From NCBI RefSeq assembly GCF_000203815.1, contig NW_004457695.1, forward strand, positions 1,054,001 to 1,118,000: 64,000 nt of DNA. The letters run 5' to 3'. Shown here in pieces: positions 42,611 to 64,000 of the stretch. How positions within the stretch are numbered: position 1 is the first letter of the stretch; the number at the start of each line of letters is the position of its first letter. Position numbers and translations under genes: made by a program. The stretch is from Cavenderia fasciculata (Eukaryota; Evosea; Eumycetozoa; Acytosteliales; Cavenderiaceae). The notes beneath the pieces were generated by a model. It did not search any database. It was not told the DNA's origin and saw only the letters and a list, made by a program, of their open reading frames with translations.

Positions 42611-44084
42611 ATGAATCAAGAAATAGAAAACATATGTAAAGAATTGATAGGTATTGGCATTAAAGCCTTTGTAGATATGAGCAAATATGATAAGATTCTA
42701 TTTGTTGGTTCAATTGCTTTACCTGTTATGATCAATTGTATGTAGTAGTATAAGAGTAGAATATATGAATAGACAAGAGTATATATATTTACTTTACTTT
42801 ATTTACTATTTAGTACCAAACTTTGGAATCATACCAAATGATGAAAGTGATAGAATAGAAACACATTATCTAACTGGTATTGACAAGATTGCACATGTTT
42901 ATGATGAATGCTTGGCAGGAAATGATTCAATCTTGGAGACAAAAGATATTAAACTTTTAGCAGCATCTGCTCAAACAAGTGACAAACTATGTAGAATATT
43001 GGCGAGAAGAGATGTAGTATTGATGCTACTACAAATCATTATCAATGCAGAGAGCATGTGGAGATCAGCTCAAAGTTTTGTATCACCTCTATCCGAAGAA
43101 ACTATTCATAATCTTTACCTTACTTTAGATTATGAATCTTTAATGTTGGATGCTTCAAATTTATTAAATCATATTTTACCTAAAAGTAAAGAAAACAAAG
43201 AAATAGAAATAGAAAAAGGGAAACAAAAATAATTAATAATTAATAATTAATATTTACTTTTTCTTTTTCTTTTTCTTTTTTAAGTTGAATTGGATGAAAT
43301 ACCATTTGGAGAATTAATAGGAAGTATAAGGTATTATGGATTATCAACACCAATCATTTATAAATTACTATGTGCAATATTAAAGTTGATGGTCGATAGA
43401 AATGATACGGTCAAGACATTTATGGAAATGGAATTGATGGTACTGGTTAGATACTTTATGGAAAATGAGTTTAAATCAGAGTATAGGTTACTACGAGACT
43501 ATTGGTTACAAATATCAGTTCGTTGGTATAGAGATCGATTCAAATTAAATATAGCACCAATCGATCGGATGTTTATAGAAGAGTATTATCAGAGTAAACG
43601 GTTTTGGATCTACGTTCCAAAAGAGATTCGAGTCAATCCTCATGGTCTATTGAGTGAGGTGATATTGGATGGATATGGATTTTTACGTGGTTATATTTCA
43701 TCTACAAGTCTATTGATTGACTATATCTATTCAGAATCTGGTCTCTATGATATATGTTATCGAAAGAGTGATACTACTCTGACAAGATTCTTATTTTCAT
43801 CGTTTTTTGCTACTTCCATGTTAATGTTGTTTACATTTTCAGCGTCTCGCAAGGGCAAGGTGCATTACATCATATCTGCTGCATTTACTTGTGGCCTAAC
43901 TTATGCGCAAGAGATTATGATCAATCGTCAAAAGACGGGTGGTCGTGACTACAAAATATTTAAAGATTATTTCACTCAAAATACAAACAACGATATTTAT
44001 GTTGAAAAGGAATTATTATTAACTCAAGATGATCAACAAACAATCATTCATAATAGATCAGATATTCTGGATTATGAATTCTAA
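42611..44084 (+). CDS. Array family, copy 1 (most divergent), 432 aa
   Basis: Exons 42611-42737, 42814-43185 and 43285-44084, with both introns in phase 1. Exon 1 encodes KYDKILFVGSIALPVMINC, and exon 2 has the family core DKLCRILARRDVVLMLLQII. Exon 3 carries the armadillo-like segment, the hydrophobic pair (FLFSSFFATSMLMLFTF and VHYIISAAFTCGLTYA) and the tail NRSDILDYEF. This copy lacks the N-terminal LSIDKYKELIS version, reading instead NQEIENICKELIGIG. It differs from the others throughout exon 3. It stands alone to the left of the unrelated secreted-protein gene, so it may be the oldest member. Function unknown. Confidence 0.85.
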
Positions 44085-44319
44085 AAAAGGAAATAAATAA
44101 AATGGCATTTCAGATATTTCGGGGTTTTGATATGTCTAGTTCTTCAAACATCTGAATTGTCGCCGTTTCGGCAATTTGAATTCAAAAGGTACACGCGACC
44201 AACCAAGCATTACTTGAATAAACAAGCCGACGAAATGATGTTGAGAGCACGTTGACATTTGTTGAACAAAGTCTTACAACTACTGTTTTATTTAGTCATT
44301 TGATACAACAACAACAACA

Positions 44320-44927
44320 ATGTTATTTCATAAATATTTATTATTATTAGTTACAATAGTTTATCTAATTGGGTGTGCAGTAAGCGATTCATGCCAACCA
44401 ATTGGCCTAGTCGAACAAACCGACATTCAGTATTCCTCGATCACATTTGGTGTCGAAAGTTGCCACATACTTCAAGGCTATGACAACGGTTGCGATGGCA
44501 ATGTGAAATACACACTCAAAGTTAACGAGACCGTCGTTTTCGGGGGAGAAAACGGATATGATCAAGTTGCTGGATTCGATGGAGTTCACTTGTGCTTTTC
44601 AATCTCAACCTATAGTTCAAAGTATGTTCAATGATATCCGAATAATAATAATTTAAACTCTAACATCCTCTTCTCTTTTCTCTCTCTTTTGATAGTTACT
44701 GTACACCACCAACTGAATATACAACTCGTTGCAACTCGGGATGTATCACACCCAACTTTGACTCTGAGTATTCCTACATTGTCCCATATAAATGGATGCT
44801 CGATACATACTGTGCTGAGGGTTTCAAGGATACCTACAATTTCTCGTTTGAATCCTCATCATCCATTGTCCAAACCAACCTTTTCTTTGTTCTCGTCAGT
44901 CTAGGTCTTATCTTTTTAGTCTTGTAA
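44320..44927 (+). CDS. Small secreted, probably GPI-anchored, Cys-rich protein
   Basis: Exons 44320-44621 and 44696-44927 give 177 residues. The N-terminal signal peptide (LLLLVTIVYLIGCAVSDSC) is followed by ~135 residues with about ten Cys and Tyr/Gly-rich beta-type sequence. The C-terminus ends in a Ser-rich stretch (FESSSSIVQ) and a terminal hydrophobic run (FFVLVSLGLIFLVL) with nothing after it, which is the GPI-attachment pattern. It is unrelated to the array family yet sits between copies 1 and 2 in the same orientation. The family is not recognised. Confidence 0.78.
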
Positions 44928-45044
44928 ATGAAATGACCCAAAATATAATAAAAAAATGAATTTCTCTAATCGTAATATTTACCTGTCCATCTATCTGAAC
45001 TTGTAGTTCATCATCTTATTTCATGTCATTCAACTTCAAGAGAG

Positions 45045-45196
45045 ATGACAAATATATTATTATCTATAGATAAATATAAAGAATTGATTAGTATTGGTTT
45101 GAAATCAATACAATCAAGAACATATAGTAAATATGATAAGATACTATTTGTTGGTTCATTAGCTTTACCTTTTTTAGTCAATTGTATGTAAATCAC

Positions 45197-45259
<63 letters not shown>

Positions 45260-46534
45260 AACTTACTTTCTCTCTCTTTTTTCCTTTTTAGTACCAATTT
45301 ATGGAATAATACCAAATCAACAAGATACTAGGATTGAATCAATGTATGATAATGCAATTGATAGGATTACAAATGTTTATAATGAAATTCAAACAGATCC
45401 AGAATCAGTATATAGCCTTGATATTAAGAATTTGGCAAGTGTTGCTGACAAGTCAAACAAGTTGTGTAGAATATTGGCACAGAAAGATGTAGTAATGACT
45501 CTATTAGATATCATTATCAACGGAGAGGAAATACACACACAAAGATATAATGATCAATTACCTCTATCTGATAAAATCATCGAAGAATTGTATCTAACTA
45601 TTGAAAGTAATTCTATAATGTTGGATTGTATATCTTTATTAAATAGTATTTTACCTTTTGGTATGTAATGAAGAAAAAGAAAAGAAAAAGAAATATATAT
45701 TTATTTATTAATTTTGTTGTTTTATTTATTTATTTAAATTCTATTTAATTAGTACAAGATATACCATATGGAGGATTAATTTATATAATTATAAATTATC
45801 CATCATCACCAACAAGTTATCAATTAACATGTGCTGTATTAAAAACAATGGCATTGAGGCCAGAGGAGACGATTCAACCATTTTTAGATGTTGGTTTGAT
45901 TCATATTATTAAATACTTTTTAGACAAAGAGGTTACATCTGAACACTCAGTGCTACGATATTATTGGTTACAAGTTGCTCAGACCATATATAAATCTCCC
46001 ATAGGTCATTTTGAAACAACCGAAGAGGAACAAGAGTTTATTGACGAATACTATGAAAATGGGAGATTTAAATTATGGTTGCCAAAACAATTAAGAATCA
46101 AACCTTTTAGTGTCATGTTTGAAACATTGACCGATACCTTTGGATTTTATAAAGGTTGGGTAACTGGTACTTCATTGTTTGTAGATCTTGTCTATTCAAG
46201 TTCACCTGTTTTCGATGCAATCTATCGTCGATTAGATTCAACCTTGACAAGATACTTGGCATGTTCATTGTTTTTTTCAACTTTTGCACTCTATTCAACA
46301 GTTTTCCTTTCTCGCCAAGGAAAGATTTATTACTCCTTATCATCCATCTTGACAATGTCCCATAGCGTCTATCTCAACAATCAAGTCAATCGTCAAAGAT
46401 TGGGTGGAGACATTTACAAATCTTTTAAAAAGTATTATAAAACAAATGATCAAAATAATTCCCCTTTTTCAACAATCAATAATGATCAAATAATTATTAA
46501 AGATAAATCTGATATTTTAGATTGTGAATTTTAA
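45045..46534 (+). CDS. Array family, copy 2, 429 aa
   Basis: Exons 45045-45183, 45292-45660 and 45753-46534; both introns are phase 1. Exon 1 reads LLSIDKYKELISIGLKSIQS, then KYDKILFVGSLALPFLVNC. Exon 2 has SNKLCRILAQKDVVMTLLDI, and exon 3 has RLDSTLTRYLACSLFFST followed by the second hydrophobic segment. The tail is DKSDILDCEF. Intron 1 contains a long (ATG)n run. Exon 1 plus the start of intron 1 match copy 10 almost exactly, whereas exon 3 does not, which suggests sequence exchange. Confidence 0.85.
45197..45258. repeat. (ATG)n microsatellite inside intron 1 of array copy 2
   Basis: About 20 ATG units end at TGATTAACTTACT, which looks like the branch-point region of the intron. Copy 10 carries a shorter version at the same place. 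Confidence 0.85.
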
Positions 46535-46660
46535 TCAAACAAAAATAGAAAATAATAAATAAATTAAATTAAAATATCTTTTTTAAAATCGTCTGGATGA
46601 TGAGGTCACAAGTATGTGTGTTCATTCATTCATTTCATTCATCTATTTTTCAAATCCAAA

Positions 46661-48141
46661 ATGACAGATATATTATCTATACTATTATCTTTATCAAAAG
46701 ATAAATATAAAGATATAATAGGTGTTGGTTTAAAATCAATACTATCAAGATCATATAGTAAATATGATAAGATATTGTTTGTTGGTTCAATTGCTTTACC
46801 TTTTCTAGTTAATTGTAATGTAATAATACATATTATTAGATCGATTCTAAATTTAAACTTACTCTTTTCTCTATCTCTTTCTTTTAGTACAAATGTATGA
46901 AATAATACCAAATAATCCTCATAAAAGGATTGAATCATTTTATAATAGTGCAATTGATAGGATTGCAAATGTTTATCATCAAATTGAAACAACACATTCG
47001 ATTACCGATGATCAAGATTTAAGAGAATTGGCAAACCTAGCTGAAAAGAATGACAAGTTGTGTAGAATATTGGCAAAGAGAGAGGTAGTAATGACTCTGT
47101 TACGTATCATTGTCAATGGAGAGGAATTATGGAAACAAAATTATTATAGTCGTTTACCTCTAACTGAAGAAACTATCTATCAAATTTATACTACTCTTGA
47201 TAATGATTCATTTATTTTGGATTGTACTGATTTATTAAATCATATTTTACCTTGGGTAAAAGGTATGTAAAGTAGAAAATAGAATATATATATTTATATA
47301 GTTATTAATTTCTTTTCTATTTCTTTTTTTTTTAGTCCAAGATATACCATATGAAGGGATTTTTTATGTAATTAAAAATCATCCAATGTCACCATCAAGT
47401 TATCGGTTGACATGTACGATATTGAGAACAATGACTTTGAATAGAGAAACCATTGTACCATTTATTAGTGTTGGAATGATTAGAATGGTTAGATTCTTTT
47501 TGGCTAATCAAGTCAGTTATGAGTATTCACAGTTACAAGATTATTGGTTACAAATTACTAGGATTATGTACAAAGATAGGGAATATTATTTTAAATCATT
47601 ATCAACACAAGATCAATTATACATAGAGGAATCTTATAAAAATGGGAGATTTAAATTATGGATTCTTCCAACAAAAGAATTACGTATCTCACCTTTTAGT
47701 GTAATGACTGAAATCATTTCAGATGGTATTGGGTATTATCAAGGTTGGATCAATGGTACAGCATTATTTATGGATCATATCTATTCAGATTCACCTATTT
47801 CCGATATGATCTATCGGAGATTAGATTCAACCTTGACTAGGTATTTGGCAAGTTCATTATATGCATCATCATTGTTACTCTATTTCACAGTATTCCTTTC
47901 TCGCAAGGGATTAATCTTTTATACTTTATCGACTGGTTTATCAATGTCCATTCACACTTACCAAGACAAACTTGTCAATCACCAAAAATTAAGTGGTCCC
48001 ATTTACAGAGCTTTTCAAAAATATTATCAAACTGATCATCATCCAGGTTCATCAATCACTATGAATATGGATATTGATCAACTCAATCAAAATAATATTA
48101 TTAAAGATAAATCTGATATTTTAAATTATCGATTTAAATAA
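46661..48141 (+). CDS. Array family, copy 3, 444 aa (longest)
   Basis: Exons 46661-46814, 46888-47262 and 47336-48141. Exon 1 starts MTDILSILLSLSKDKYKDII. Exon 2 is close to copy 5 (PNNPHKRIESFYNSAIDRIA; ETTHSITDDQD). Exon 3 shares ILPTKELRISPFSVMTEIIS with copy 5. The C-terminus has an extra SSITMNMDIDQLNQNN stretch before DKSDILNYRFK. The TM pair reads RYLASSLYASSLLLYFTVFL and LIFYTLSTGLSMSIHTY. Confidence 0.87.
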
Positions 48142-48233
48142 AAAATAAAAGAATTCTTTTTTTAAAATCTACGATCGAGCGTTTTGATGATCATCATCCT
48201 TTCATTTTTTTTTTTTGGAGACACAGATAGAGG

Positions 48234-49704
48234 ATGACAACATACATAGATAGTTTATCTATAGATAAATGTAAAGAATTGATTAGTGTTGGATTAGAAT
48301 CAATACAATCAAGAACATATAGTAAATATGATAAGATACTATTTGTTGGTTCAATTGCTTTACCTTTTTTAATGAATTGTAATGTATTATAAGTATAGTC
48401 TTGATGCGTTCTAAATTAAACTTACTTTTTCTTACTCTCTCTCTCTATCTCTCTTTCTCTTTAATAGTAAAAATTTATGGAATAATACCAAATGATCAAA
48501 GGATTGAATCAATTTATGATAATGCAATTGGTAGGATTACAAATGTTTATCAATACCTTGAATCTATACAATCGATTGTACACATTCAAGATATAAGGGA
48601 ATTGGCAAACCTAGCTGAAAAGAATCACAAGTTGTGTAGAATATTGGCTCAGAGAGAGGTAGTAATGACTCTGTTACAAATCATTATCCGTGCAGAGGAA
48701 TTATGGAAACATAATTATTATACTCGATTACCTCTAACTGAACAAAACGTTAATCAATTATATACTACTCTTGACAATGAATCTTTAATGTTGGATTGTA
48801 TTGATTTATTAAATAGTATTTTACCTTGGGTAAATGGTAAATAGAAGAAAAATAGAAAATAGAATAGATAATCATTATCTAATTTATTTTCTTTTCTTTT
48901 TCTTTTTCTACTCCAGTTTCAGATATACCATATGAAAGGTTTTATAAAGTAATTTGTATTCATTCAACATCGCCAACAAGTTATAGATTGGCGTGTGCGG
49001 TATTGAGAACAATGACTTTGAATAGAGAAACCATTCAACCATTTATCAGTGTTGGGATGATTAATATTGTTAGATTCTTTTTAGTCTATCAAGTCAAATC
49101 AGAGTATTCACAGTTACAAGAGTATTGGTTACAAATTACAAATATTATATTCAAAGACAACGATAGACGATATTATTTTAAATCATTATCGGATCAATCA
49201 TTGATCGAGGAATATTATGAAAAAGGGAGATTTAAATTATGGATTCCCCAAGCAAAAGGATTACGTATCACATCATTTCGAGTGATGAGTGAAATCATTT
49301 TAGATGGTATTGGGTATTATCAAGGTTGGATAAATACAACAGCATTATTTATGGGTCATGTCTATATAGACTCACCTTTTTCCGATATGATCTATCGGAG
49401 ATTAGATTCCACAGTGACTAGGTATTTGGCAAGTTCATTCTATGCATCATCATTGTTACTCTATTTCACGGTATTCCTTTCTCGCAAAGAATTCATCTAT
49501 CTGTCTGTGTCGACTGTCTTGGCAATGTCCATTAACATGTATCAAGAGCGACTAGTCAATCACCAAAAATTAAGTGGTTTCATTTATAAAGCTTTTGCAA
49601 AATATTATCAAACTCCTCCTCATCTTGATTCTTCAATTAATAATAATGATCAAAGAAAAATGATTAATAATAGATCAGATATTCTGGATTATCCATTTCA
49701 ATAA
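48234..49704 (+). CDS. Array family, copy 4, 433 aa
   Basis: Exons 48234-48378, 48468-48836 and 48917-49704. The start is MTTYIDSLSIDKCKELISVG. Core motifs are NHKLCRILAQREVVMTLLQI in exon 2, IQPFISVGMINIVRFFLVY in exon 3, and the hydrophobic pair RYLASSFYASSLLLYFTVFL / FIYLSVSTVLAMSINMY. The tail is NRSDILDYPFQ. It groups with copies 3 and 5 by shared GYYQGWIN and LHS-type residues in exon 3. Confidence 0.87.
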
Positions 49705-49907
49705 AATATTAATAATAATAATTAAATAAATAAATCTTTCATCATAGAATGATCAATCTACAACACACAGATATTACGTATGTATCTTTTAAAATAAAAA
49801 GAATAAAAAAAGAATTAAATTAAAATATCTTTTTTTTAAAAATCATATGACCCAACAAGTATGTATGTTCATTTATTCATTCATCTATTATTTGTTTCAA
49901 ATCCAAA

Positions 49908-51401
49908 ATGACAGATATATTATCTATATTATCTTTATCAAAAGATAAATATAAAGATATAATAGATGTTGGATTAAAATCAATACTATCAAGAACATAT
50001 AGTAAATATGATAAGATTCTATTTGTTGGTTCAATTGCTTTACCTTTTTTAATCAATTGTATGTAATTATCGATTATTAATCTCTATCTCTAAATTTAAA
50101 CTTACTCTTTTCTCTCTTTTTTTCTATTTAGTACCAATGTTTGAAATAATACCAAATAATCCTCATAAAAGGATTGAATCATTTTATAATAGTGCAATTG
50201 ATAGGATTGCAAATGTTTATCATCAAATTGAAACAACACATTCGATTACCGATGATCAAGATGTTATAAGAGAATTGGCAGACCTAGCTGAAAATAATGA
50301 CAAGTTGTGTAGAATATTGGCTAAAAGAGAGGTAGTTCTGACTCTTTTACATATCATTGTCAATGGAGAGGTTATATGGAAACATAATAATTCTCGTCGA
50401 GCACCTCTGACTGAACAAACCATTTATGAAATTTATACTACTCTTGATAGAAAATCTTTAATGTTGGATTGTATTGATTTATTAAATCATATTTTACCTT
50501 GGGTAAAAGGTATGTAAAGAAAATAGAAAATAGACAAAAGATAGAATAGTTTGAAAATATAATTATTATTAATTACTTTTTTACTTTTTCTTTTTCTTTT
50601 TCTTTTTTTATAGATATACCATATGTAGGGTTTAATTATGTAATTAATAATAATCCTTTATCACCAACAAGTTATAGATTGACATGCGCAATATTGAGAA
50701 CAATGACATTGAAAAGAGAAACTATTCAACCATTTATCAGTGTTGGTATGATTAGAGTTGTTATGTTTTATTTGGCCAATCAGGTTGGATCTGAATATGC
50801 ACAGTTGGAAGATGATTGGTTACAAATTGCACGATTAATATACAAAGACAAGGAATATTATTTTAAATCATCATCATTGTCAACATTTGAACAATCATAT
50901 GTAGAGAGATATTATAAAAAAGGGAGATTTAAATTATGGATTCTTCCAACAAAAGAATTACGTATCTCACCTTTTAGTGTAATGACTGAAATCATTTCAG
51001 ATGGTATTGGGTATTATCAAGGTTGGATCAATGGTACAGCATTATTTATGGATCATATCTATTCAGATTCACCTATTTCCCATATGATCTATCGTAGATT
51101 AGATTCAACCTTGACCAGATACTTGGCAAGTTCATTATATATGTCATCATTGTTACTCTATTTCACAGTATTTCTTTCTCGCAAGGGTTTGATCTATTAT
51201 ACTTTATCAACCGGGTTGTCAATGTATCAAGACAAACAAATCAACCACCAAAAATTAAGTGGTACCATTTACAGAGCTTTTCAACATACTTATCAAAATG
51301 ATCTTCCAGGGTCACCAATTACTATGAATATGAATATTGATAAACTCAATCAAAATAATATTATTAAAAATAGATCTGATATTTTAAATTATCAATTTTA
51401 G
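49908..51401 (+). CDS. Array family, copy 5, 438 aa
   Basis: Exons 49908-50058, 50132-50509 and 50614-51401. Exon 2 is nearly a duplicate of copy 3 exon 2 over its first half. Exon 3 begins directly at DIPYVGFNY, lacking the V-x of other copies because the acceptor is shifted by two codons. The tail is NRSDILNYQF, with stop TAG. Upstream of the ATG, the 5' flank (AAATCCAAAATGACAGATAT) also matches copy 3, so the duplication includes the promoter. Confidence 0.87.
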
Positions 51402-51487
51402 AAAATAAAATAAATAAAAGAAATTAAAATATCTATGATGGCATTGTGATGTTCATTTTTCATTTTCATTTTTTTTGATAGAGATAA

Positions 51488-52853
51488 ATGACAGATATAT
51501 CATCTTTATCTATAGATAAATGTAAAGAATTGATTAGTGATGGTTTGAAATCAATACTATCAACAACATATAGTAAATATGATAAGGTATTGTTTGTTGG
51601 TTCAATTGCTTTACCTTTTTTAGTCAATTGTATGTAGAGTATATCACATGTGCGATGTGATAGTCGAAAACCTTTCTCACTCTCTCTTACTCTTTTTAGT
51701 ACCATATTTTGGAATACTACCAAATAATCGAGATCAAAGGATTGAATCATTTTATGATAATGGTGCAATTGAAAAGATTATAAATGTTTATCAACAAGTT
51801 GAATCAAATATAAATAGTCGAGATATTAGAGATTTGGCAGAATTTGCTGAAAGATCCAACAAGTTGTGTAGAATATTGGCAAAGAGAGAGATAGTGAAAC
51901 TGTTGTTAAGTATCATTTTCAGTGGAGAGGATTTATGGAGACAAAGTTATAATGGTCAATTACCTCTATCTGAAGAAACTATCTATCAAATATATACGAC
52001 TCTTGATAATGAATCTTTAATGTTGGATTGTACTGATTTATTAAATCATATTTTACCTTGGGTAAATGGTAAATAGAAAAAGAAGAAAAAGAAGAAAAAG
52101 AAAATAATAGAAAAGACACATAGCATATATTTATTATTTTCTATTTTCTAAGATATACCATATGAAGGATTGATATATGTAATTAAAAAGAATGTTTTAG
52201 CAACATCAAGTTATAGATTAACATGTACGATATTAAAAACAATGATATTGAAGCCGGAAACAATCCAACCATTTATAAGTGTTGGTATAATCACTATTAC
52301 TAGATACTATTTAGATAATGAATTCAAATCTGAATATCGATTGCTGCGTGATTATTGGTTACAAATTACTCAGATTATATGTAAAGACAAAGATAATATA
52401 TCATTATTGGATCAATCATTGATAGATGAATACTATAAAATGGGTAGATTTAAATTATTGATTCCAAAAGAATTAAGAATCAATAGTCTTGGTAAAATGC
52501 TTGATATTGTAACCGATGGTATTGGTTTTTATACTGGTTGGTTAAATGCAACTGGATTATTATTGGATCAAATCAATACAAATTCATATCTCTCTAATTG
52601 GATCTATCGACGATTAGATTCTACACTGACTAGATATTTGTTGTGTTCAGCCTATTATTCATCGTTGACTCTGTATTTGGCAGTTTTCAGAAACAAAAAT
52701 ATATTATATCCTTTGGCTAGTGTCTTGTCAATGGCTATTTGTAGTTACCAAGCAAGACTTGTCAATCATCAAAAATTGGGTGGTCCCATTTACAAAGCTT
52801 TTAAAAAATATTATCAAACTCCTCTTGATAACTCAATGAACAATCATGATTAA
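51488..52853 (+). CDS. Array family, copy 6, 403 aa, conserved tail lost
   Basis: Exons 51488-51629, 51700-52068 and 52153-52853. Exons 1 and 2 are typical (SNKLCRILAKREIVKLLLSI). Exon 3 is intact through the hydrophobic hairpin and the HQKLGGPIYKAFKKYYQTP segment. It then ends at NNHD. The usual tail (SSDILDYQF) is still present immediately downstream in another frame (to 52885), so a small indel has cut off the last residues. The protein may still fold; the tail-dependent function, whatever it is, would be lost. Confidence 0.82.
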
Positions 52854-52957
52854 TAGTTCTGATATTTTGGATTATCAATTTTAGAAAAAAATAAATAAAA
52901 AATAGAAATACGTAAAGATGACAGTCTTTTTTTTCATTCATCCAATCTTCAAGAGAT

Positions 52958-54428
52958 ATGAAAGATTTATCATCTTTATCTATAGATATAGATAAATATA
53001 AAGAATTGATTAGTATTGGTTTGAAATCAATACAATCAAGAACATATAGTAAATATGATAAGATATTGTTTGTTGGTTCAATTGCTGTACCTTTTTTAGT
53101 CAATTGTATGTAATGTATTTAAAGTATGAAAAATCTTGATGATTCAAAAAACTTACTTTTTTTCTTCTTCTTCTTCTTCTTCTATGTTTAGTACCAATTT
53201 ATGGAATAATACCAAATAATCGAGATAAAAGGATTGAAACAATTTATGATAATGCAATTGCAAAGATTAATATTGTTTATGAAGAAGTTGAAACGCTAAC
53301 TACCAATACAATTTTTGAAAATCAAGATATAAAAGATATGGCAGCTTTTGCTGAAAAGAGTAATAAGTTGTGTAGAATATTGGGTCAAAGAGATGTGGTA
53401 TTGATGTTGTTAAGAATCATTTTTTGTGCAGAGGAAATGTTTGAAAATAGTTATAGTCATAGATTACCTCTGACTGAAGCAACTATTCATCAATTATATA
53501 CTAGTTTGGATACTGAAAATATAATGTTACATTCAACTGATTTATTAAATCATATTTTACCTTGGGGTATGTAAAGAAAAATAGAAGAAGAAAAAAAGAT
53601 AATATTTATTTATTTATTCTTTTTTTTTCTACTCTAGTTTCAGATATACCATTTGATTTATTTTATACAGTAATTCATTATCATTTAACATCACCATCAA
53701 GTTATCAATTGATATGTTCAGTATTGAGAACAATGATATTGAACCATGATACGATTCAACCATTTATAGATGTCAATATTATTAGTATTGTTAAATACTA
53801 TTTAGACAATCAATTCAAATATGAATATTCATTGTTACAAGATTATTGGTTACAACTTGCTCGGATTATATATAAAGCTGGTGATCAATTTAAAACAACA
53901 GTAGATGAACAATCATTTATAGATGAATACTATGACCAAGGTAGATTTAAATTATGGTTACCAGAAGAATTACGTCTACCACCTCATAGTATGTTATATG
54001 AAACAATAACCGATGCATTTGGTTATTATTTTGGTTGGGTAAACAAGACTGGTTTATTGGTTGATCAAATCTATTCAAATAATCTATTTTCAGAGGATAT
54101 TTATAGACGATTAGATTCTACGTTGACGAGATATTTGGGATGTTCAATATTTGCATCATCATTGTCACTTTATTTAATATTTATTCTTCAACCCAAAGGA
54201 AAGATATATTGCATTGCATCGGCTCTAACAACAATGGTCTTGTATAGTTTTCACGAGCAACACGTCAATCATCAAAGATTAAGTGGAAAGATTTATAAAT
54301 CTTTTCAAAAATATTATCAAACTAAACAATATCATAACGATGAAATAGAATTAATCACAAATCAAAATCAAAATCAAAATAATATTATTAATAATAAATC
54401 AGATATTTTAAATTATCATTTTAAATAA
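52958..54428 (+). CDS. Array family, copy 7, 437 aa
   Basis: Exons 52958-53105, 53192-53566 and 53638-54428. The start is MKDLSSLSIDIDKYKELISI. Exon 2 has a longer acidic linker (ETLTTNTIFENQDIKDMA) before SNKLCRILGQRDVVLMLLRI. Exon 3 has the armadillo-like IQPFIDVNIISIVKYYLDN, the pair RYLGCSIFASSLSLYLIFIL / IYCIASALTTMVLYSF, and ends NKSDILNYHFK. Confidence 0.86.
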
Positions 54429-54490
54429 GAAAAAAAAAAAAACAAAAGAGAGTAGTGAAATAAATTTCATTTCATTATTTATTCATTAAG

Positions 54491-55953
54491 ATGACAGAAG
54501 ATATAATATCTTTATCTATAGATATAGATAAATATAAAGAATTGATTAGTATTGGTTTAAAATCAATACTATCACTATCAACATCAACATTTAGTAAATA
54601 TGATAAGATACTATTTGTTGGTTCAATTGCTGTACCTTTTTTATTGAATTGTAATGTAGTAAATCAAACTTTGTATTGGATACAAAAACTTACTATTTTC
54701 TCTCTATTTAGTACTATTCTATGAAATATTACCAAATAATCCTAATAAAAGGATTGAAACATTTTATAAAAAGGGTATTGAAAAGATTATGATGGTTTAT
54801 AATGAAATGGAAACAAATAATAGAATAACGATAACTCAAGATATCAAAGAGATGGCAGTATTTGCTGAAAAGTCAAACAAGTTGTGTAAAAGATTGGCTC
54901 ATAGAGGTGTAGTAGTGATGTTGTTGAGAATTATGGCTGGTGCAGAGGGAATATGGAACAATCGTATTAGTCATCGATCACCTCTATCTAAACTAGCCAC
55001 CCATCATTTATATACTCGTTTTGAAAAAGATAATATAATGATGGATTGTATTAATTTATTAAATCATATTTTACCCTATGGTAAGAAGAAATATATAGAA
55101 AAATAGAAATAGAAAATATATATATTTATTTATTTATTTATTTATTCTTTTTACAATAGTAAAAGATGATATACCTTTTGATTTATTGTATCGAATCATT
55201 TATTCTAATTCATTATCACCAACAAGTTATAGATTGACATGTGTAGTATTGAGAACAATGACATTGAAACCTGAAACCATTCAACCATTTATCAAAGTTG
55301 GTATGATTAGAATGGTTAGATTTTATTTAGACAATCAATTCAAATCAGAGTATTCACAATTGGAAGATTATTGGTTACAAATTACCAAAATAATATACAA
55401 AGATAAGGAATATTATAAACATCATTTTAAATCATCAGTACAAGATCAATCATTTATAGATGAATACTATGAAAATGGAAGATTTAAATTATGGATTCTT
55501 CCAACAAAAGAATTACGTGTACCACCTCATAATATGTTATTTACAATCATTTCTGGTGGTATTGGATATTATACAGGTTGGTTAAATACAACTGCATTAT
55601 TTGTTGGTAACATCTATTCGCATAATCTATTTTCAAATACTATCCTTGGACGATTAGATTCAACCTTGGCTAAATACCTTTTTTGTTCATTCTATGCATC
55701 ATCATTGATGTTATACTATATATTCCTTCTTCCAACCAAAGGAAAGATTTTTTACATTGTTTCCACTCTAATATCAGCAGTCATTTCTAGTTATCAAGAC
55801 ACTCTAGTATCTCGTTTAAAAGCAAATGGTCGTCTTTACAAATCTTTTCAACAACTTTATCAAACGCCTCATCAAAATGATGATTTATTTTTTGAAAATA
55901 ATCATACAATGATTATTAATAATAAATCTGATATTTTAGATTATCAATTTTAA
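54491..55953 (+). CDS. Array family, copy 8, 440 aa
   Basis: Exons 54491-54650, 54712-55080 and 55160-55953. Exon 1 carries a small insertion (SLSTSTFSKYDKILFVG). The exon-2 core is slightly changed to SNKLCKRLAHRGVVVMLLRI. In exon 3 the usual IYRRLDSTLTRYL is LGRLDSTLAKYL. The second hydrophobic segment is IFYIVSTLISAVISSY, and the tail is NKSDILDYQF. Open throughout; with the altered core it may be diverging in function. Confidence 0.85.
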
Positions 55954-56058
55954 AAGGTAAGAAAAAAGAAAATCGGAAATTTATAATAATAAATGGAAAC
56001 TTTTAAGAAATTAATTTTACTAATGCACGATCATTTTTCTTTTTCATCTATAATATCA

Positions 56059-57437
56059 TTCTTTATCTATAGATAAATTTAGTATAGGTTTAAAACCAAT
56101 ACTATCACTCAAAATATGTTAAGTAAGATACTATTTGTAGGTTCAATAGCTTTACCTTTTCTAGTCAATTGTAAATATAAATCAAAAAAGTTTTAATATC
56201 AAAAGATCGATTCTAATTAACTTTTTTTCTTTTTTCCTCTCTCTATCTATTTAGTACCAATTTATGGAATAGTACCAAACAATCGAGATACAAGGATTGA
56301 ATCATTTTACAGTCATGGTATTGAAAAGATTAGAAATGTTTGTCAACAAATTGAAACAAAAAATACAATAATAATGGAGAATCAAGATATTAGAGATATG
56401 GCAACATTTGCTGAAATGTCAAACAAATTGTGTAGAATATTGGCTCAGAGAGATGTAGTATTGATGTTGTTGAATATTATTATGCGTGCAGAGGAAATAT
56501 GGGAAAATAGTTATAGTCATCGATTACCTCTATCAAATCAATCTGTTTATCGTTTATATACTATATTTGATACCGAATCTTTAATGTCGGATTGTACCGA
56601 TTTATTAAATAGTATTTTACCTTTTGGTAGGTTAAAAAAGAAATAGAAAATAGAAAAATTATTTTTATTTATATTTATTTGTATCTTTTTTTTTTTTTAT
56701 TTATAGTCAAAGATACACCATATGATTTATTATATAAAGCAATTAATTTTCATCCAGAATCACCAACAAGTTATAGATTGGCATGTGCAATATTAAAAAC
56801 AATGACATTGAAACAGCATACGATTCAACCATTTATCAACGTTGGAATGATTAGAATGGTTAGATTTTATTTAGATAATCAAATGAAATCAGAGTATTCA
56901 CAATTGGAAGATTATTGGTTACAAATTTCTAGAATAATATACAAAGATCGACAATATCAATTTAAATCATCATTGTCTAAAGATCAAGATAATATGGCAT
57001 TTATCGAGGAATATTATAAAAAAGGTAGATTTAAATTATGGTTGCCAAAAGAAATACGTCTACCACCTCATAATATGCTATTTAAAATAGTAACTGATGC
57101 GTTTGGATATTATTTTGGTTGGTTAAACATGACTGGATTTATAGTAGGTCATTTCTATTCAAATACTATATTTTCAGATGGAATCTATCGACGATTAGAA
57201 TCTACATTTTCAAGATACTTGGCATGTTCAATATTCGTATCATCAATGTTACTCTATTTCTCATTCCTTCTTTCATCTACCAACGGAAAGATTTATATAC
57301 TTGCTTCGACCATAACATTAATGGCCATTTATAGTTTTAGAGAAAGACAAGTCAAATTTCAAAGATTAAGTGGTCCCCTTTACAAATCATTCCAACAACG
57401 TTATCAAACTCCTCATCAAAAAGATCAAATAAAATAG
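56059..57437 (+). pseudogene. Array family, copy 9, decayed first exon and missing tail
   Basis: Exons 2 (56255-56626) and 3 (56707-57437) are open and typical (SNKLCRILAQRDVVLMLLNI; IYRRLESTFSRYLACSIF). The exon-1 equivalent (about 56059-56172) has lost its ATG, carries indels, and reads TATGTTAAGTAAGATACT where others have the YSKYDKIL codons. The 3' end stops at KDQIK without the SDIL-type tail. It is most likely a pseudogene, although a product initiated in exon 2 cannot be excluded. Confidence 0.75.
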
Positions 57438-57587
57438 AAAAAGTCTTCAAAAAATAGATATATATGAGAAAAATGGATAGACCGGAAGTGATTCCGTGTC
57501 AAAAATCTAGATATTTTAACAAAAAAGAATAAGAATGTGAATGACAATCGACCAGTTTTTTCATTCTTTTGTTTACACTTTATCGAT

Positions 57588-59037
57588 ATGACAGATATAT
57601 TATCTCTATCATCTTTATCTATAGATAAATATAAAGAATTGATTAGTGTTGGTGTAAAATCAATACTATCAAGAACATATAGTAAATATGATAAGATATT
57701 GTTTGTTGGTTCATTAGCTTTACCTTTTTTAGTCAATTGTATGTAAATCACATGATGATGATGATGATGATTAACTTACTTATTCGCTTCTTTTTTCCTT
57801 TTTAGTACCAATTTATGGAATAGTACCAAATGAAAGAGATAAAAGGGTTGAATCATTTTATGAAAGTGCAATTGAAAAGATTACACTTGCATATGACGAA
57901 ATTAGTGCTGATTATATGGTAGAATCGCAAGATATAAGAGAAATGGCAAACATTGCTGAAAAGTGTAACAAGTTGTGTAGAATATTGGCAAAGAGAGAGG
58001 TAGTACAGATGTTGTTGGGGATCATTAACGGCGCCGAGGAAATATGGGAAACTAGTTATAGTCATCAAATACCTCTATCTGAAGAAGCCACTGTACAATT
58101 ATATAATCGTTTGGAAAATGATAATATAATGATTGATTGTACTGATTTATTAAATCATATTTTACCTTTTGGTAAGAAGAAAAAGAAATAGATAGATAGA
58201 TAGATAGAAAATAGAATTACATATATATTTATTTTTTCTTTCTCTCTTTTTTTTTTAGTTCAAGATATACCATATGAATTATTTTTTAAAGTAATTAGTT
58301 TTTATGTAACATCACCATCAAGTTATCAATTGACATGTGCAGCATTGAAAACAATGACATTGAGAAAAGAGACTATACTACCATTTATCAATGATGGAAT
58401 GTTGAATATAGTTAGACTCTATATCAGCTATGAACTCAAATCTGAATATTCATTGTTACGAGACTATTGGTTACAAATTGCTCGGATCATTTACAAAGAT
58501 CGTAAACTTTTTAGATCATTGTTGGTAGAAGATCGACGATTTGTAGAGGAATACTATGAAATGGGTAGATTTAAATTATGGTTACCACAAGATTTTCGTG
58601 TACCACCTCATAATATGTTGTATGAAATAGTGTCCGATGGATTTGGGTATTATCTTGGTTGGGTAAACAAGACTGGTTTATTGGTTGATAATATCATTGC
58701 AAATAATACATTTTCAGATTGGATCTATCGACGATTAGATTCTACACTATCAAGATACCTATATTGTTCGATATTTGCATCATCATTTTCACTCTATTTC
58801 ACATTTCTACTCCCACCCAAAGGAAAGATTTATTACATTGCATCAGCTGTCACTTCACTGGCTATTTGTAGTTTGCACGAGAAACTAGTCAGTCGTCAAA
58901 GAATATGTGGTCAACTTTACAAATATTTCCAACAACGATTTCATATTCCAAAACTACAAGATGATCAAATCAATTTTGAAACTACCAATCAAATAATTAT
59001 TAAACATAAATCTGATATTTTAAATCATCAATTTTAA
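57588..59037 (+). CDS. Array family, copy 10, 431 aa
   Basis: Exons 57588-57738, 57806-58171 and 58259-59037. The start is MTDILSLSSLSIDKYKELIS. Exon 1 and the first ~20 bases of intron 1, including the ATG repeat, match copy 2. Exon 2 has CNKLCRILAKREVVQMLLGI. Exon 3 has ILPFINDGMLNIVRLYISY and the pair RYLYCSIFASSFSLYFTFLL / IYYIASAVTSLAICSL. The tail is HKSDILNHQF. Confidence 0.86.
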
Positions 59038-59140
59038 AATAAAAAAATATTTAAATAAAATAAAAAAAAGATAATTATATTCTTTCATCATGATCGATCG
59101 ATGGATGATTCTTTTTCATTTCATTTTTTTAAATTCTTTA

Positions 59141-60317
59141 TTATAGATAAATATAAAGAATTGATTAGTATTGGTTTAAAATCAATACAATCGTATAGTA
59201 AATATGATAAGATATTGTTTGTTGGTTCATTAGCTATACCTTTTTTAATCAATTGTAATTATAACAAGAGATGATGATTAACTTTTTATTTTATTTTTTT
59301 TTAGTTTCTGATATATTACCAAACAATTGTGTAGAATATTGGCACAGAAAACAAAGGTAGTACAGATGTTGTTGGATAATGATTCATTATCGGTGCAAAT
59401 CAAATTTATGAAAGTATTTATAGTCAACAAGTACCTCTATCTGGACATAGTATTCATCTATTATATACTACTATTGATAATCATTCAATCATGTCATGTT
59501 GTACTAATTTATTAAATCATATCTTTCCTTGGTTAAATGGTAATTGTGGAATAGAAATATGGAAAATAGAAAATAGAAAAGATAAATTTATTTATAATAA
59601 TTTATTTATTTATAATTATTTATTTTTTTTTTTTTTTTATATCTTTAGTTATAGAATATAGTGATATCATTTATAAAACCATTTATCGTCAATTAAAATT
59701 ACCAACGGGTTATAAATTGACATGTACAGTATTTAAATCAATGATTTTGAAACCTGAAACGATTCAACCATTTATCAATGTTGGAATGATTAAAATTGTT
59801 AGATTTTATTTAACCAATCAATTCAAATCCGAGTATACATTGCTACTCGATTATTGGTTACAAATTGCCAAAAGTATATACAATGACAAACATTTTTTTA
59901 AATCATTGGCATTATCGGATCAATCATTTGTAGTGCAATATTAAAAATGGGTAGATAGATTTAAATTAATGTTTCTTCCAAAAGAATTACGTATCAATCC
60001 AATTGGTACAATATTTGAAGTGGTATCTAAAGGTATTGGATATAAGGTTGGTTCAATGGTACTGCATTATTTGTTGATAATATCTATGAAGATACTATCC
60101 TTGGACGATTAGATTCTACCATTTCAAGAAACTTGGATTGTTCAATGCATGTATCAACATTGGCACTCTGTTTCACATTTATACTTCCACCAAAAGGAAA
60201 GATATATTACATTGCATGGTGTGTCACATCAACAACCCTTTATAGGTATCAATCAATTTTGACAATCAACAAAATATTATTAATAATAAATCAGATATTT
60301 TAGATTATCCTTTTTAA
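59141..60317 (+). pseudogene. Array family, copy 11, multiply damaged
   Basis: The exon-1 remnant (59141-59254) lacks an ATG and the first residues but keeps DKYKELISIGLKSIQS and ILFVGSLAIPFLIN. The exon-2 remnant (from about 59305) has lost its first half, jumping from LPNN to LCRILAQK, and has further indels. Exon 3 (59649 onward) is open for about 98 codons (IQPFINVGMIKIVRFYLTN), is then interrupted and lacks several segments. The end still reads NKSDILDYPF. At least five disruptions mark it as a pseudogene of the array. Confidence 0.85.
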
Positions 60318-60424
60318 AAGTAAAAAAATTAAAAAGAATAAAATAAAAACCCCGAGAGATATTTTCATCATCATAAAGTAAAGATGATCATGTGCACTCA
60401 TTTCATTTTTTAGAGTCAAGAGAG

Positions 60425-61862
60425 ATGACAGAAGATATATCATCTTTATCTATAGATAAATATAAAGAATTGATTAGTATTGGATTAAAATCAATACTAT
60501 CAACAACATATAGTAAATATGATAAGATTCTATTTGTTGGTTCAATAGCTTTACCTTTTTTAGTTAATTGTAATGTAATATATGAATATACCAATAATAG
60601 TCTTTTGAATCCTTTTATTAACTTTTTTCTTTTTTCCTTCTCTCTATCTATTTAGTACCAATTTATGGAATATTACCAAACAATCAAGATAAAAGGATTG
60701 AATCATTTTATAATCATGGTATTGAAAAGATCCTAAATGTTTATAGTGAAATTGAAACAAATCATAGGATAGTGGTAACTCAAGATATTAGAGATATGGC
60801 AACATTGACTGAAAAGAATAACAAATTGTGTAGAATACTGGCTCAGAGAGATATAGTATTCATGTTGTTGAGAATCATTCTAGGTGCAAACCAAATTTGG
60901 GAAAATGGTTATAGTCATCAAGCACCTCTATCTGAATATACTATTCATCAAATTTATACTCATTTGGAGAATGATAATATGGTTTTAGATTGTACTGATT
61001 TATTAAATAATATTTTACCTTTTCGTATGTAAAAAAATAGACTCTATCTATTTATTTATTTATTTATTAAATTATTATTCTTTTTATAGTCCAAGATATA
61101 CCATTTGAATTATTTTATAAAGTAATTTATTATCATTCATTGTCACCAACAAGTTATAAATTGACTTTGGCGGTATTGAGAACAATGACATTGAAACCAG
61201 AGACGATTCCACCATTTGTAATAGTTGGTATGGTTGATATTGTTAGAGTGTATCTTCAAAACGAGGTCAAATCTGAATATTCACAATTACGTGATTATTG
61301 GGTACAAATTGCACGAGTACTATACAAGGATGAACATTTTGAACAATTACCACTAGTCTATCAATCATTGATAGAGGAATATTATAAAAAAGGTAGATTT
61401 AAATCATGGATTCCAAAAGAATTACGCCTCCCACCAATTGGTACATTACATGAAACCATAACTGATGTGTTTGGATATTATCAAGGTTGGTTAAATGGTA
61501 CTACAATATTGGTTGATTATATCTTTTCAAATAGTATATTTTCAGATACTATCTATCGTAGATTAGATTCTACGTTGGTTAGATACTTGACATGTTCATT
61601 GTTTACATCATCATTGTCATTTTATTTTACAATGCTTCTTCCACGTAAAGGAAAGATTTTTTACATCTCGTCTGGTATCATTTCAATACTAATAAGTTTT
61701 TACCAAGATAAATTAATTGCTAATCAAAAAACAAGTGGTACACTTTACAAATCTTTTAAAGAATGCTTTCAAACTCCTGTCAATCAAAATGATAGATTTT
61801 TTGAATCAACTAAAATCATAAATATTAATAATAAATCAGATATTTTAAATTATCGATTTTAA
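60425..61862 (+). CDS. Array family, copy 12, 428 aa
   Basis: Exons 60425-60569, 60656-61024 and 61090-61862. The start is MTEDISSLSIDKYKELISIG. Exon 2 has NNKLCRILAQRDIVFMLLRI with NGYSHQAPLSEYTIHQIY. Exon 3 has IPPFVIVGMVDIVRVYLQN, RYLTCSLFTSSLSFYFTMLL and the tail NKSDILNYRF. It is closest to copy 13, sharing LRLPPIGTL, HQKTSGTLYK-like and QTPVNQNDRFFE segments. Confidence 0.87.
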
Positions 61863-61929
61863 AATAAAAAATTAAAAAATACAAAGGAAAAAGGAATAAC
61901 GGGATCTTTTTTTTCATTCACAAAGAGAG

Positions 61930-63375
61930 ATGACAGATATATCATTATCATTATCTATAGATATAGATAAATATAAAGAATTGATTAGTATTGGTTTAAA
62001 ATCAATACTATCAAGAACATATAGTAAATATGATAAGATATTGTTTGTTGGTTCATTAGCTTTACCTTTTTTAATCAATTGTATGTAGAGTATATCAAAG
62101 ATGATGATCATATCTTTTAATATTCAATGATGATGATTAACTTTTTCTTTTTCTTTTTAGTACCAATTTATGGAATAATACCAAATAATCAAGATAAAAA
62201 GATTGAATCATTTTATAATCAAGGTATTGAAAAGATTTTAAATGTTTATAATGAAATTCAAACAAATAATAGAATCATGATAACTAGTGATATAAAAGAT
62301 ATGGCAACATTGGCTGAAAAGAGTAATAAGTTGTGTAGAATATTGGGTCAAAGAGATGTAGTATTGATGTTGTTGAGAATTATTCTAGGTGCAGAGGAAA
62401 TATGGGAATCTAGTTATAGTCATCAAGCACCTCTAACTGAACAAAGTATTCATCAAATTTATACTCATTTGGATAATGATAATATAGTTTTAGATTGTAC
62501 TGATTTATTAAATCATATTTTACCTTTTGGTAAGAAGTAAAAAAAAAAGAATAGAAAATAGAATTATATTTATTTATTTATTTATTTTTTCTACTCTAGT
62601 TTCAGATATACCTTTTGATTTATTTTATCACATTATTAATTATCATCCTTTAACACCATCAAGTTATAGATTGGCATGTGCGGTATTGAGAACAATGACT
62701 TTGAAAAGATCGACCATTCCATCATTTGTAAGTGTTGGAATGATTGATATAGTTGGATTTTATTTGGGTAATCAATTTAAATCTGAATATTCACAATTAC
62801 AAGATTATTGGCTACAAGTTTCTCAAATACTTTACAAGGATAGACATTTTAAATCATTACCTTTAGAGGATCAATCATTTATAGAGGAATATTATAAAAT
62901 GGGTAGATTTAGATTATGGTTACCAAAAGAATTACGTCTCCCACCAATTGGTACACTTTATGAAACTTTATCTGATGCGTTTGGATATTATCAAGGTTGG
63001 TTAAATGGTACTACATTATTTGTTGATAATATCTATTCAAATAATTTATTTTCAGATTGGATCTATCGTCGATTAGATTCTACACTATCAAGATATTTGG
63101 TTTGTTCATTGTTTGCATCATCATTGTCTTTTTATTTTACATTTCTACTTTCACCAAAAGGAAAGATTTATTACATTTCATCTGCTATCATTTCAATGAT
63201 AATAAGTCTTTATCAAGATAAATTAATTGCTCATCAAAAAACAAGTGGTCCACTTTATAAAGCTTTTAAACAACGTTTTCAAACTCCTGTCAACCAAAAT
63301 GATAGATTTTTTGAAAATTTAAATCAACAAAATATTATTTATAATAAATCTGATATTTTAAATTATCAATTTTAA
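61930..63375 (+). CDS. Array family, copy 13, 431 aa (good reference copy)
   Basis: Exons 61930-62080, 62161-62529 and 62600-63375; both introns are phase 1. The N-terminal polar stretch (LSIDIDKYKELISIGLKSIL) precedes a hydrophobic segment at residues ~34-60 (KILFVGSLALPFLINCLPIY). The helical core (SNKLCRILGQRDVVLMLLRI at ~105-125; AVLRTMTLKRSTIPSFVSVG at ~201-220) resembles armadillo repeats. The conserved IYRRLDSTLSRYL leads to hydrophobic segments at ~338-357 and ~362-377. The C-terminal tail is NKSDILNYQF. Predicted membrane protein; function unknown. Confidence 0.88.
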
Positions 63376-63467
63376 AAAAAAATAGAAAAAAAAATAAATA
63401 AAAAAGAAGAAAAAAAACAAATTATAATCATCATCTTTTTTTTTTTTCATTCAAAGGGGAGAGATAG

Positions 63468-64000
63468 ATGACAGATAAATATAAAGAATTGATTAACATT
63501 GGTTTGAAATCAATACTATCAACAACATATAGTAAATATGATAAGATATTGTTTGTTGGTTCAATTGCTTTACCTTTTCTAGTCAATTGTAATGTATTTA
63601 TTAAGAATACTAGACTTTTATGATGATTAACTTTTTGTTTCTATCTCTTTTTTTTTTTAGTAAGAATTTATGGAATATTACCAAATAATCCTAATAAGAG
63701 AATTGAAACATTTCTTGATCGTGGCATTGAAAAGATTATATTGATTTATAATGAAATGGAAACAAATAATAGAATATTACAAACAAATGATATAAAAGAG
63801 ATGGCTGAATTGGCTAAAAGATCAAACAAGTTGTGTAGAATATTGGCAAAGAGAGAGGTAGTATTGATGTTGTTGGGGATCATTGCAGGTGGAGATCAAC
63901 TATGGGAAAATGGTTATAGTCATAGAGCACCTCTAACTGAACTAATCATTCATCAATTTTATACTATTTTGGATACTGATAATATAATGATAGATTGTAT
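63468..64000 (+). CDS. Array family, copy 14, cut by the window end
   Basis: Exon 1 is 63468-63588, with a short N-terminus MTDKYKELINIGLKSILSTT; exon 2 runs from 63661 to the edge. Exon 2 reads LRIYGILPNNPNKRIETF and SNKLCRILAKREVVLMLLGI. Nothing in the visible part is broken. The array therefore extends beyond this window. Confidence 0.8.

Follow-up and report, generated by a model that had tools for sequence, protein, structure and literature searches.

What kind of protein is encoded by the long run of similar genes at the end of a 64,000-nucleotide stretch of the Cavenderia fasciculata genome, and why are so many copies present? The stretch, referred to here as the window, covers contig NW_004457695.1 from 1054001 to 1118000 (C14:1054001-1118000) in a genome of 30,995,898 bases in 21 contigs; genomes of about 30 megabases are given for the dictyostelids analysed, D. 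lacteum excepted (PMC5006619). The genes form a tandem array of 15 copies on the + strand over 26.1 kilobases (kb; window-coordinates 42611-68748), with a shared gene structure and with homologues dispersed in the same genome. We give an even chance to the reading that a membrane-embedded armadillo-like protein family has undergone lineage-specific expansion in tandem here, the expansion being regarded as lineage-specific because the copies are closely similar to one another.

A sequence-only reading of the window had described fourteen copies in one direction over more than 21 kb, unfinished at the window edge, with common intron positions and phases and compact spacers, and each of these points was confirmed. 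Fourteen of the 15 copies begin inside the window, all on the + strand and the first of them at 42611, and the full extent is 15 copies over 26.1 kb because copy 14 completes past the edge (at 64872) and copy 15 (67300-68748), which ends the array, follows a transposase. Three exons and two GT..AG introns, both in phase 1, were present in 14 gene models (copies 1-10 and 12-15), with intron lengths of 61-108 and 65-104 bases. As the models were built by hand and the search for the second donor required phase 1, the phase is partly given by construction; it is consistent with the open frames on either side and with the aligned junctions, which agree. The spacing from stop codon to the modelled ATG of the adjacent copy was 62-203 bases, with three exceptions: copies 1-2 (960 bases, with another gene between), copies 10-12 (with a pseudogene between) and copies 14-15 (2427 bases, with a transposon between). 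Eleven copies (1-8, 10, 12 and 13) were open within the window, as had been stated, with copy 6 among them ending early.

Protein parts, dispersed relatives and probable fold

Using copy 13 as reference, hydropathy and octanol scans identified an N-terminal hydrophobic segment (aa, amino acids, 38-56; 62041..62177, + strand) that is split by intron 1, the family-averaged hydrophobic 19-mer giving an octanol score of 8.2. The most conserved region of the cluster is aa 21-60, with a block identity of 0.76-0.81. The segment is followed on the same strand by a probable armadillo-like core (about aa 57-281; 62178..62922), encoded by exon 2 and the first part of exon 3 with intron 2 between, and by C-terminal hydrophobic helices (aa 301-319, 339-357 and 361-379; 62980..63216, + strand), of which only the second scored strongly. 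Downstream of a variable tail lies the C-terminal motif KSDILNYQF (63346..63372, + strand), with a block identity of 0.65 for aa 421-431 versus 0.30 for aa 401-420. The array proteins are probably membrane proteins, as had been proposed.

Six dispersed homologous genes and one probable member, on C19, were identified in the same genome; these counts are lower bounds, and gene ends were partly worked out by hand. Genome searches with cluster proteins retrieved a C5 paralogue (C5:2767727-2769232, minus strand), sharing 37% identity with copy 13 and 34-39% with cluster copies, and a distant paralogue (C14:940355-941706, minus strand), sharing 24% and 21-27%, respectively. The remaining four were reached via weak matches, namely C8:98201-99645 (minus strand, 15% identity to copy 13), C5:161626-163062 (+ strand, 21%), C15:91025-92581 (+ strand, 20%) and a gene on C14 near 1447672-1449000 (minus strand, 17%), the latter two each with one extra intron. 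A profile built from the cluster copies plus the C5 paralogue gave the five distant genes 36.8-100.8 bits, versus a best score of 9.0 in 1000 shuffles. The gene structure was also shared: every one of the seven hand-made dispersed models had a phase-1 intron 1, and six had an intron 2 preceding the IP motif. Six dispersed models had intron 1 within alignment columns 63-74 (cluster: 72); of these, five had intron 2 at column 209 and one at 207 (209-214 in the cluster copies printed). The dispersed genes encode a hydrophobic C-terminal region, as in the cluster. A further candidate, C3:339023 (E, expectation value, 0.53), was rejected, its frames being judged unrelated by eye.

The C19 gene (C19:269570-271066, L020:771-2267, + strand) is probably a family member, and was counted as such because of its score with a wider profile (16.5 bits versus ≤ 6.5 in 1000 shuffles), its match in a genome search with the C14 1447-kb member as query (E 0.0026) and its phase-1 first intron (column 84). 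The second intron is absent, and C19 was not outstanding with the narrower cluster profile. Its sequence is the most clearly armadillo-like of the family members (NKRLVEAGAIPILEYY), and it is possibly the closest to the family's ancestor. In the phylogenetic tree, the C5 paralogue grouped with the cluster copies at 94/92 support; 5 of 17 inner branches were starred, the C5 paralogue may lie inside or outside the cluster, and the order of the dispersed genes is unsure because of long branches.

The core of these proteins is probably armadillo-like, armadillo repeats being a widespread scaffold for binding proteins. Its exon 3 part showed likeness to the beta-catenin and importin-alpha folds, limited to about 80-105 residues at 3-11% identity; to our knowledge, these two proteins have no hydrophobic membrane segments, a further difference from the array proteins. 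The structure model for exon 2 was too poor to judge, and a fold search with it was uninformative. Pfam searches with six full-length proteins, four dispersed proteins, six segments and C19 gave nothing above curated cut-offs, including no match to an armadillo (ARM) profile at the curated threshold, and NCBIfam gave nothing above cut-off for three proteins. Below cut-off, Insc_C (PF19427), which we take to be an armadillo domain, matched the exon 2 core of copies 3, 5 and 12 (all three segment queries) with 17.0, 11.9 and 11.9 bits versus a curated cut-off of 27, and it appeared for one of six full-length proteins and none of four dispersed ones. This is a likeness to the C-terminal domain of Inscuteable, which differs from the array proteins in being a soluble polarity adaptor. 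Profile searches of the PDB with exon 2 gave 10 matches (best E 0.054), with three sequences of UNC-45, an ARM protein, at E 0.71-1.2. The same searches gave no matches for exon 3 and only two, chance-like, for an 11-protein family alignment, and no similarity was found between the exon 2 and exon 3 profiles. C19 matched designed ARM proteins at E 0.0025, and these were not found with copy 13 as query; the sequence link to armadillo proteins is thus carried by the least certain family member. No relatives of exon 3 were confirmed in IMG/VR contigs, nor any in genomes of bacteria and archaea when exon 3 of copy 13 was the query, and no description of this family was present among the literature matches listed, as judged by titles and abstract openings. 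The earlier view of the family as unrecognised therefore holds with respect to the Pfam and NCBIfam cut-offs and is qualified by the dispersed kin and the probable fold, so that the observation of the array stands in full and its interpretation in part.

ARMC10/ARMCX of mammals are described as mitochondrial outer-membrane armadillo proteins with N-terminal targeting, the products of a lineage-specific expansion in which a single ancestral gene gave rise to others on the X chromosome of eutherians (PMC8666550, PMC4776218). The array proteins resemble them in a probable armadillo-type core, a predicted N-terminal membrane segment and a probable lineage-specific expansion. Unlike ARMC10/ARMCX, they also carry C-terminal hydrophobic helices, have no ARM family at cut-off and have no Arm_2 (ARMCX) match in Pfam, where it was not listed at E up to 10 (six segments), 5 (four proteins) or 1 (six proteins). 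The likeness is an analogy of kind and not homology, the array proteins falling outside that family by the tests made; by analogy, ARMC10/ARMCX show that a related design exists.

Divergence, selection and possible exchange among the copies

Protein identity among the 14 modelled copies ranged from 41 to 84% (differences of 16-59%), with copies 3 and 5 sharing 84% and the end copies 1 and 15 being the most diverged (41-47% identity to the remaining copies). The ratio of nonsynonymous to synonymous differences (pN/pS) was pooled over 55 pairs, with copies 1, 9 and 15 left out. The lowest ratio, 0.29, came from the N-terminal hydrophobic segment (aa 30-50). Exon 1 gave 0.64 and the two parts of exon 3 gave 0.67 and 0.70; exon 2 and the tail both stood at 0.96, and the C-terminal motif at 0.99. 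A neutral simulation of the whole coding sequence, run because the AT-rich composition shifts values of the substitution-rate ratio (dN/dS), gave a mean pN/pS of 1.18 (range 0.73-1.95), and no region exceeded this mean. The N-terminal segment is clearly under purifying selection and exon 3 modestly so; by this measure neither exon 2 nor the tail nor the C-terminal motif is distinguishable from neutrality, and the motif is without demonstrated selection because its ratio of 0.99 comes at low pS. These values bear on the possibility that all copies do one job and together raise the protein level, their differences being tolerated drift. Such a role in dosage would agree with the architecture and the conserved N-terminal segment common to the copies. 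It would also suit possible co-expression of the copies, as 11 of the 13 upstream regions inspected have a TTCATT no more than 90 bases from the ATG. However, dosage arrays are usually homogeneous, whereas protein identity here is as low as 41% and exon 2 diverges within the neutral range, making this explanation unlikely.

Synonymous difference increased along the gene, being 0.15 in exon 1 and 0.45 in the tail, and dropped to 0.17 in the C-terminal motif (last 11 codons); these low values at both gene ends suggest exchange or nucleotide constraint. In a permutation test of 13 copies, seven of 78 pairs had a shared run exceeding all 500 permutations; some long shared runs fall in conserved stretches, for which constraint is an alternative cause. 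Sequence exchange between copies is supported, not proved. Shared runs suggestive of gene conversion, together with tandem expansion, decaying copies and the pN/pS of 0.96 in exon 2 and the tail, would also suit a recognition or conflict family, whose copies would be variable partners in telling self from non-self, in genetic conflict or in defence against parasites or bacteria. This is rather less probable than a dosage role, as no region lies above the simulated neutral mean and the core resembles an intracellular scaffold. The earlier statement that no role could be assigned among recognition, defence and dosage still applies in view of these ratios.

The sequence-only reading had further proposed that many copies are kept open by selection. 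In six copy pairs, which share members, exon identity was 77.6-89.3% versus 58.5-74.5% for introns; all 30 exon gaps had a length divisible by three, compared with 3 of 20 gaps in introns. When copy 13 was evolved neutrally in simulation, with substitutions only, 7 of 2000 reading frames were still open at 0.05 substitutions per site, and none of 2000 at 0.10, 0.15 or 0.20, yet the open copies of the six pairs differ by 10.7-22.4% in exon DNA. Open frames have thus been kept across large divergence among the copies, which bears out the proposal. The same results weigh against mostly neutral birth and death, in which all but a few important copies are short-lived duplicates heading to loss. Damage to three of the 15 copies (6, 9 and 11), a dN/dS with a median of 0.70 and a maximum of 0.89 over 91 pairs (by a simple counting method) and the neutral-range pN/pS of exon 2 are in its favour, and it is still judged improbable, slightly more so than a recognition family. 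That the array was produced by misassembly has next to no probability: nothing was found in favour, unique sequence separates some copies, and the absence of any N in the array region and the difference of at least 16% of residues between every two modelled copies rule out an assembly artefact as the cause of the divergence.

The copies and their surroundings

All copies lie on the + strand. Copy 1 (42611..44084, 432 aa; exons 42611-42737, 42814-43185, 43285-44084) is the divergent end copy. It is followed by copy 2 (45045..46534, 429 aa; exons 45045-45183, 45292-45660, 45753-46534), copy 3 (46661..48141, 444 aa; exons 46661-46814, 46888-47262, 47336-48141), copy 4 (48234..49704, 433 aa; exons 48234-48378, 48468-48836, 48917-49704) and copy 5 (49908..51401, 438 aa; exons 49908-50058, 50132-50509, 50614-51401). 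In copy 6 (51488..52853, 403 aa; exons 51488-51629, 51700-52068, 52153-52853), the conserved C-terminal motif is still present but out of frame after the early stop. Copies 7 (52958..54428, 437 aa; exons 52958-53105, 53192-53566, 53638-54428) and 8 (54491..55953, 440 aa; exons 54491-54650, 54712-55080, 55160-55953) precede copy 9 (56116..57437; exons 56116-56170, 56255-56626, 56707-57437), in which the usual start, tail and C-terminal motif are missing and the model begins at an internal ATG (385 aa). Copy 10 (57588..59037, 431 aa; exons 57588-57738, 57806-58171, 58259-59037) is separated by the pseudogene copy 11 (59143..60314), which is broken up by frame shifts, deletions and stops (its tblastn matches fall into three frames), from copy 12 (60425..61862, 428 aa; exons 60425-60569, 60656-61024, 61090-61862). 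Copy 13 (61930..63375, 431 aa; exons 61930-62080, 62161-62529, 62600-63375) is followed by copy 14, cut by the window (63468..64000; exon 1 63468-63588, exon 2 from 63661) and 418 aa when complete, and by copy 15 outside it.

The transposase between copies 14 and 15 is of PiggyBac type (L009:1989-3911, C14:1118989-1120911, minus strand). Its pieces at L009 1992-2753 and 2761-3624 matched DDE_Tnp_1_7 (E 4e-22 and 2.5e-13), and it looks damaged because a long microsatellite lies where its two main frames overlap. A probable two-exon gene between copies 1 and 2 (window 44320-44927, + strand) would encode a small cysteine-containing protein with hydrophobic ends, for exon 1 of which no Pfam match was found at E ≤ 0.01. 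Intron 1 of copy 2 contains a perfect ATG microsatellite of 20.7 units (window 45197-45258) and intron 1 of copy 10 a short version of it with identical flanks, a hint that distant copies may have exchanged sequence. Upstream of the genes, the longer form TTTCATT was present in 10 of the 13 regions, versus a maximum of 8 for any 7-mer in 300 simulated sets; the upstream TTCATT may be a general promoter feature of this genome. Guanine plus cytosine content was 0.25-0.28 along most of the array (window 48001-64000) versus 0.26-0.41 in the rest of the window, and transfer RNA and Rfam scans of the window gave no matches. The Dicty_CTDC family gave 75 matches at E ≤ 0.001 in this genome and no signal in any of 14 control genomes, which supports its being that of a dictyostelid.

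Membrane-held adaptors as a reading of the array

In the favoured reading, the array encodes an expanded family of armadillo-like proteins embedded in a membrane. Their helical, armadillo-like core would be held there by a hydrophobic helix near the N terminus and by further hydrophobic helices towards the C terminus, an arrangement that is supported, not proved. The core would bind partner proteins, the N-terminal segment would provide a common membrane position, and individual copies would hold different partners through the diverging core. Unequal crossing-over probably generated the copies, some of which (6, 9 and 11) appear to be decaying. A more far-reaching version, to which we attach only a slight probability, is that the array is a novel type of dictyostelid locus for recognition or conflict, in which a common N-terminal membrane segment would present different armadillo-like faces, shuffled by gene conversion into strain-specific repertoires.

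A protein family without any Pfam model at cut-off thereby gains a probable fold, a probable topology and an in-genome family tree, and what had been a vague expansion of unknown kind becomes a testable proposal of membrane-held armadillo-like adaptors. If the copies differ in their partners, the array would be a natural series on how a scaffold diversifies through duplication and sequence exchange.

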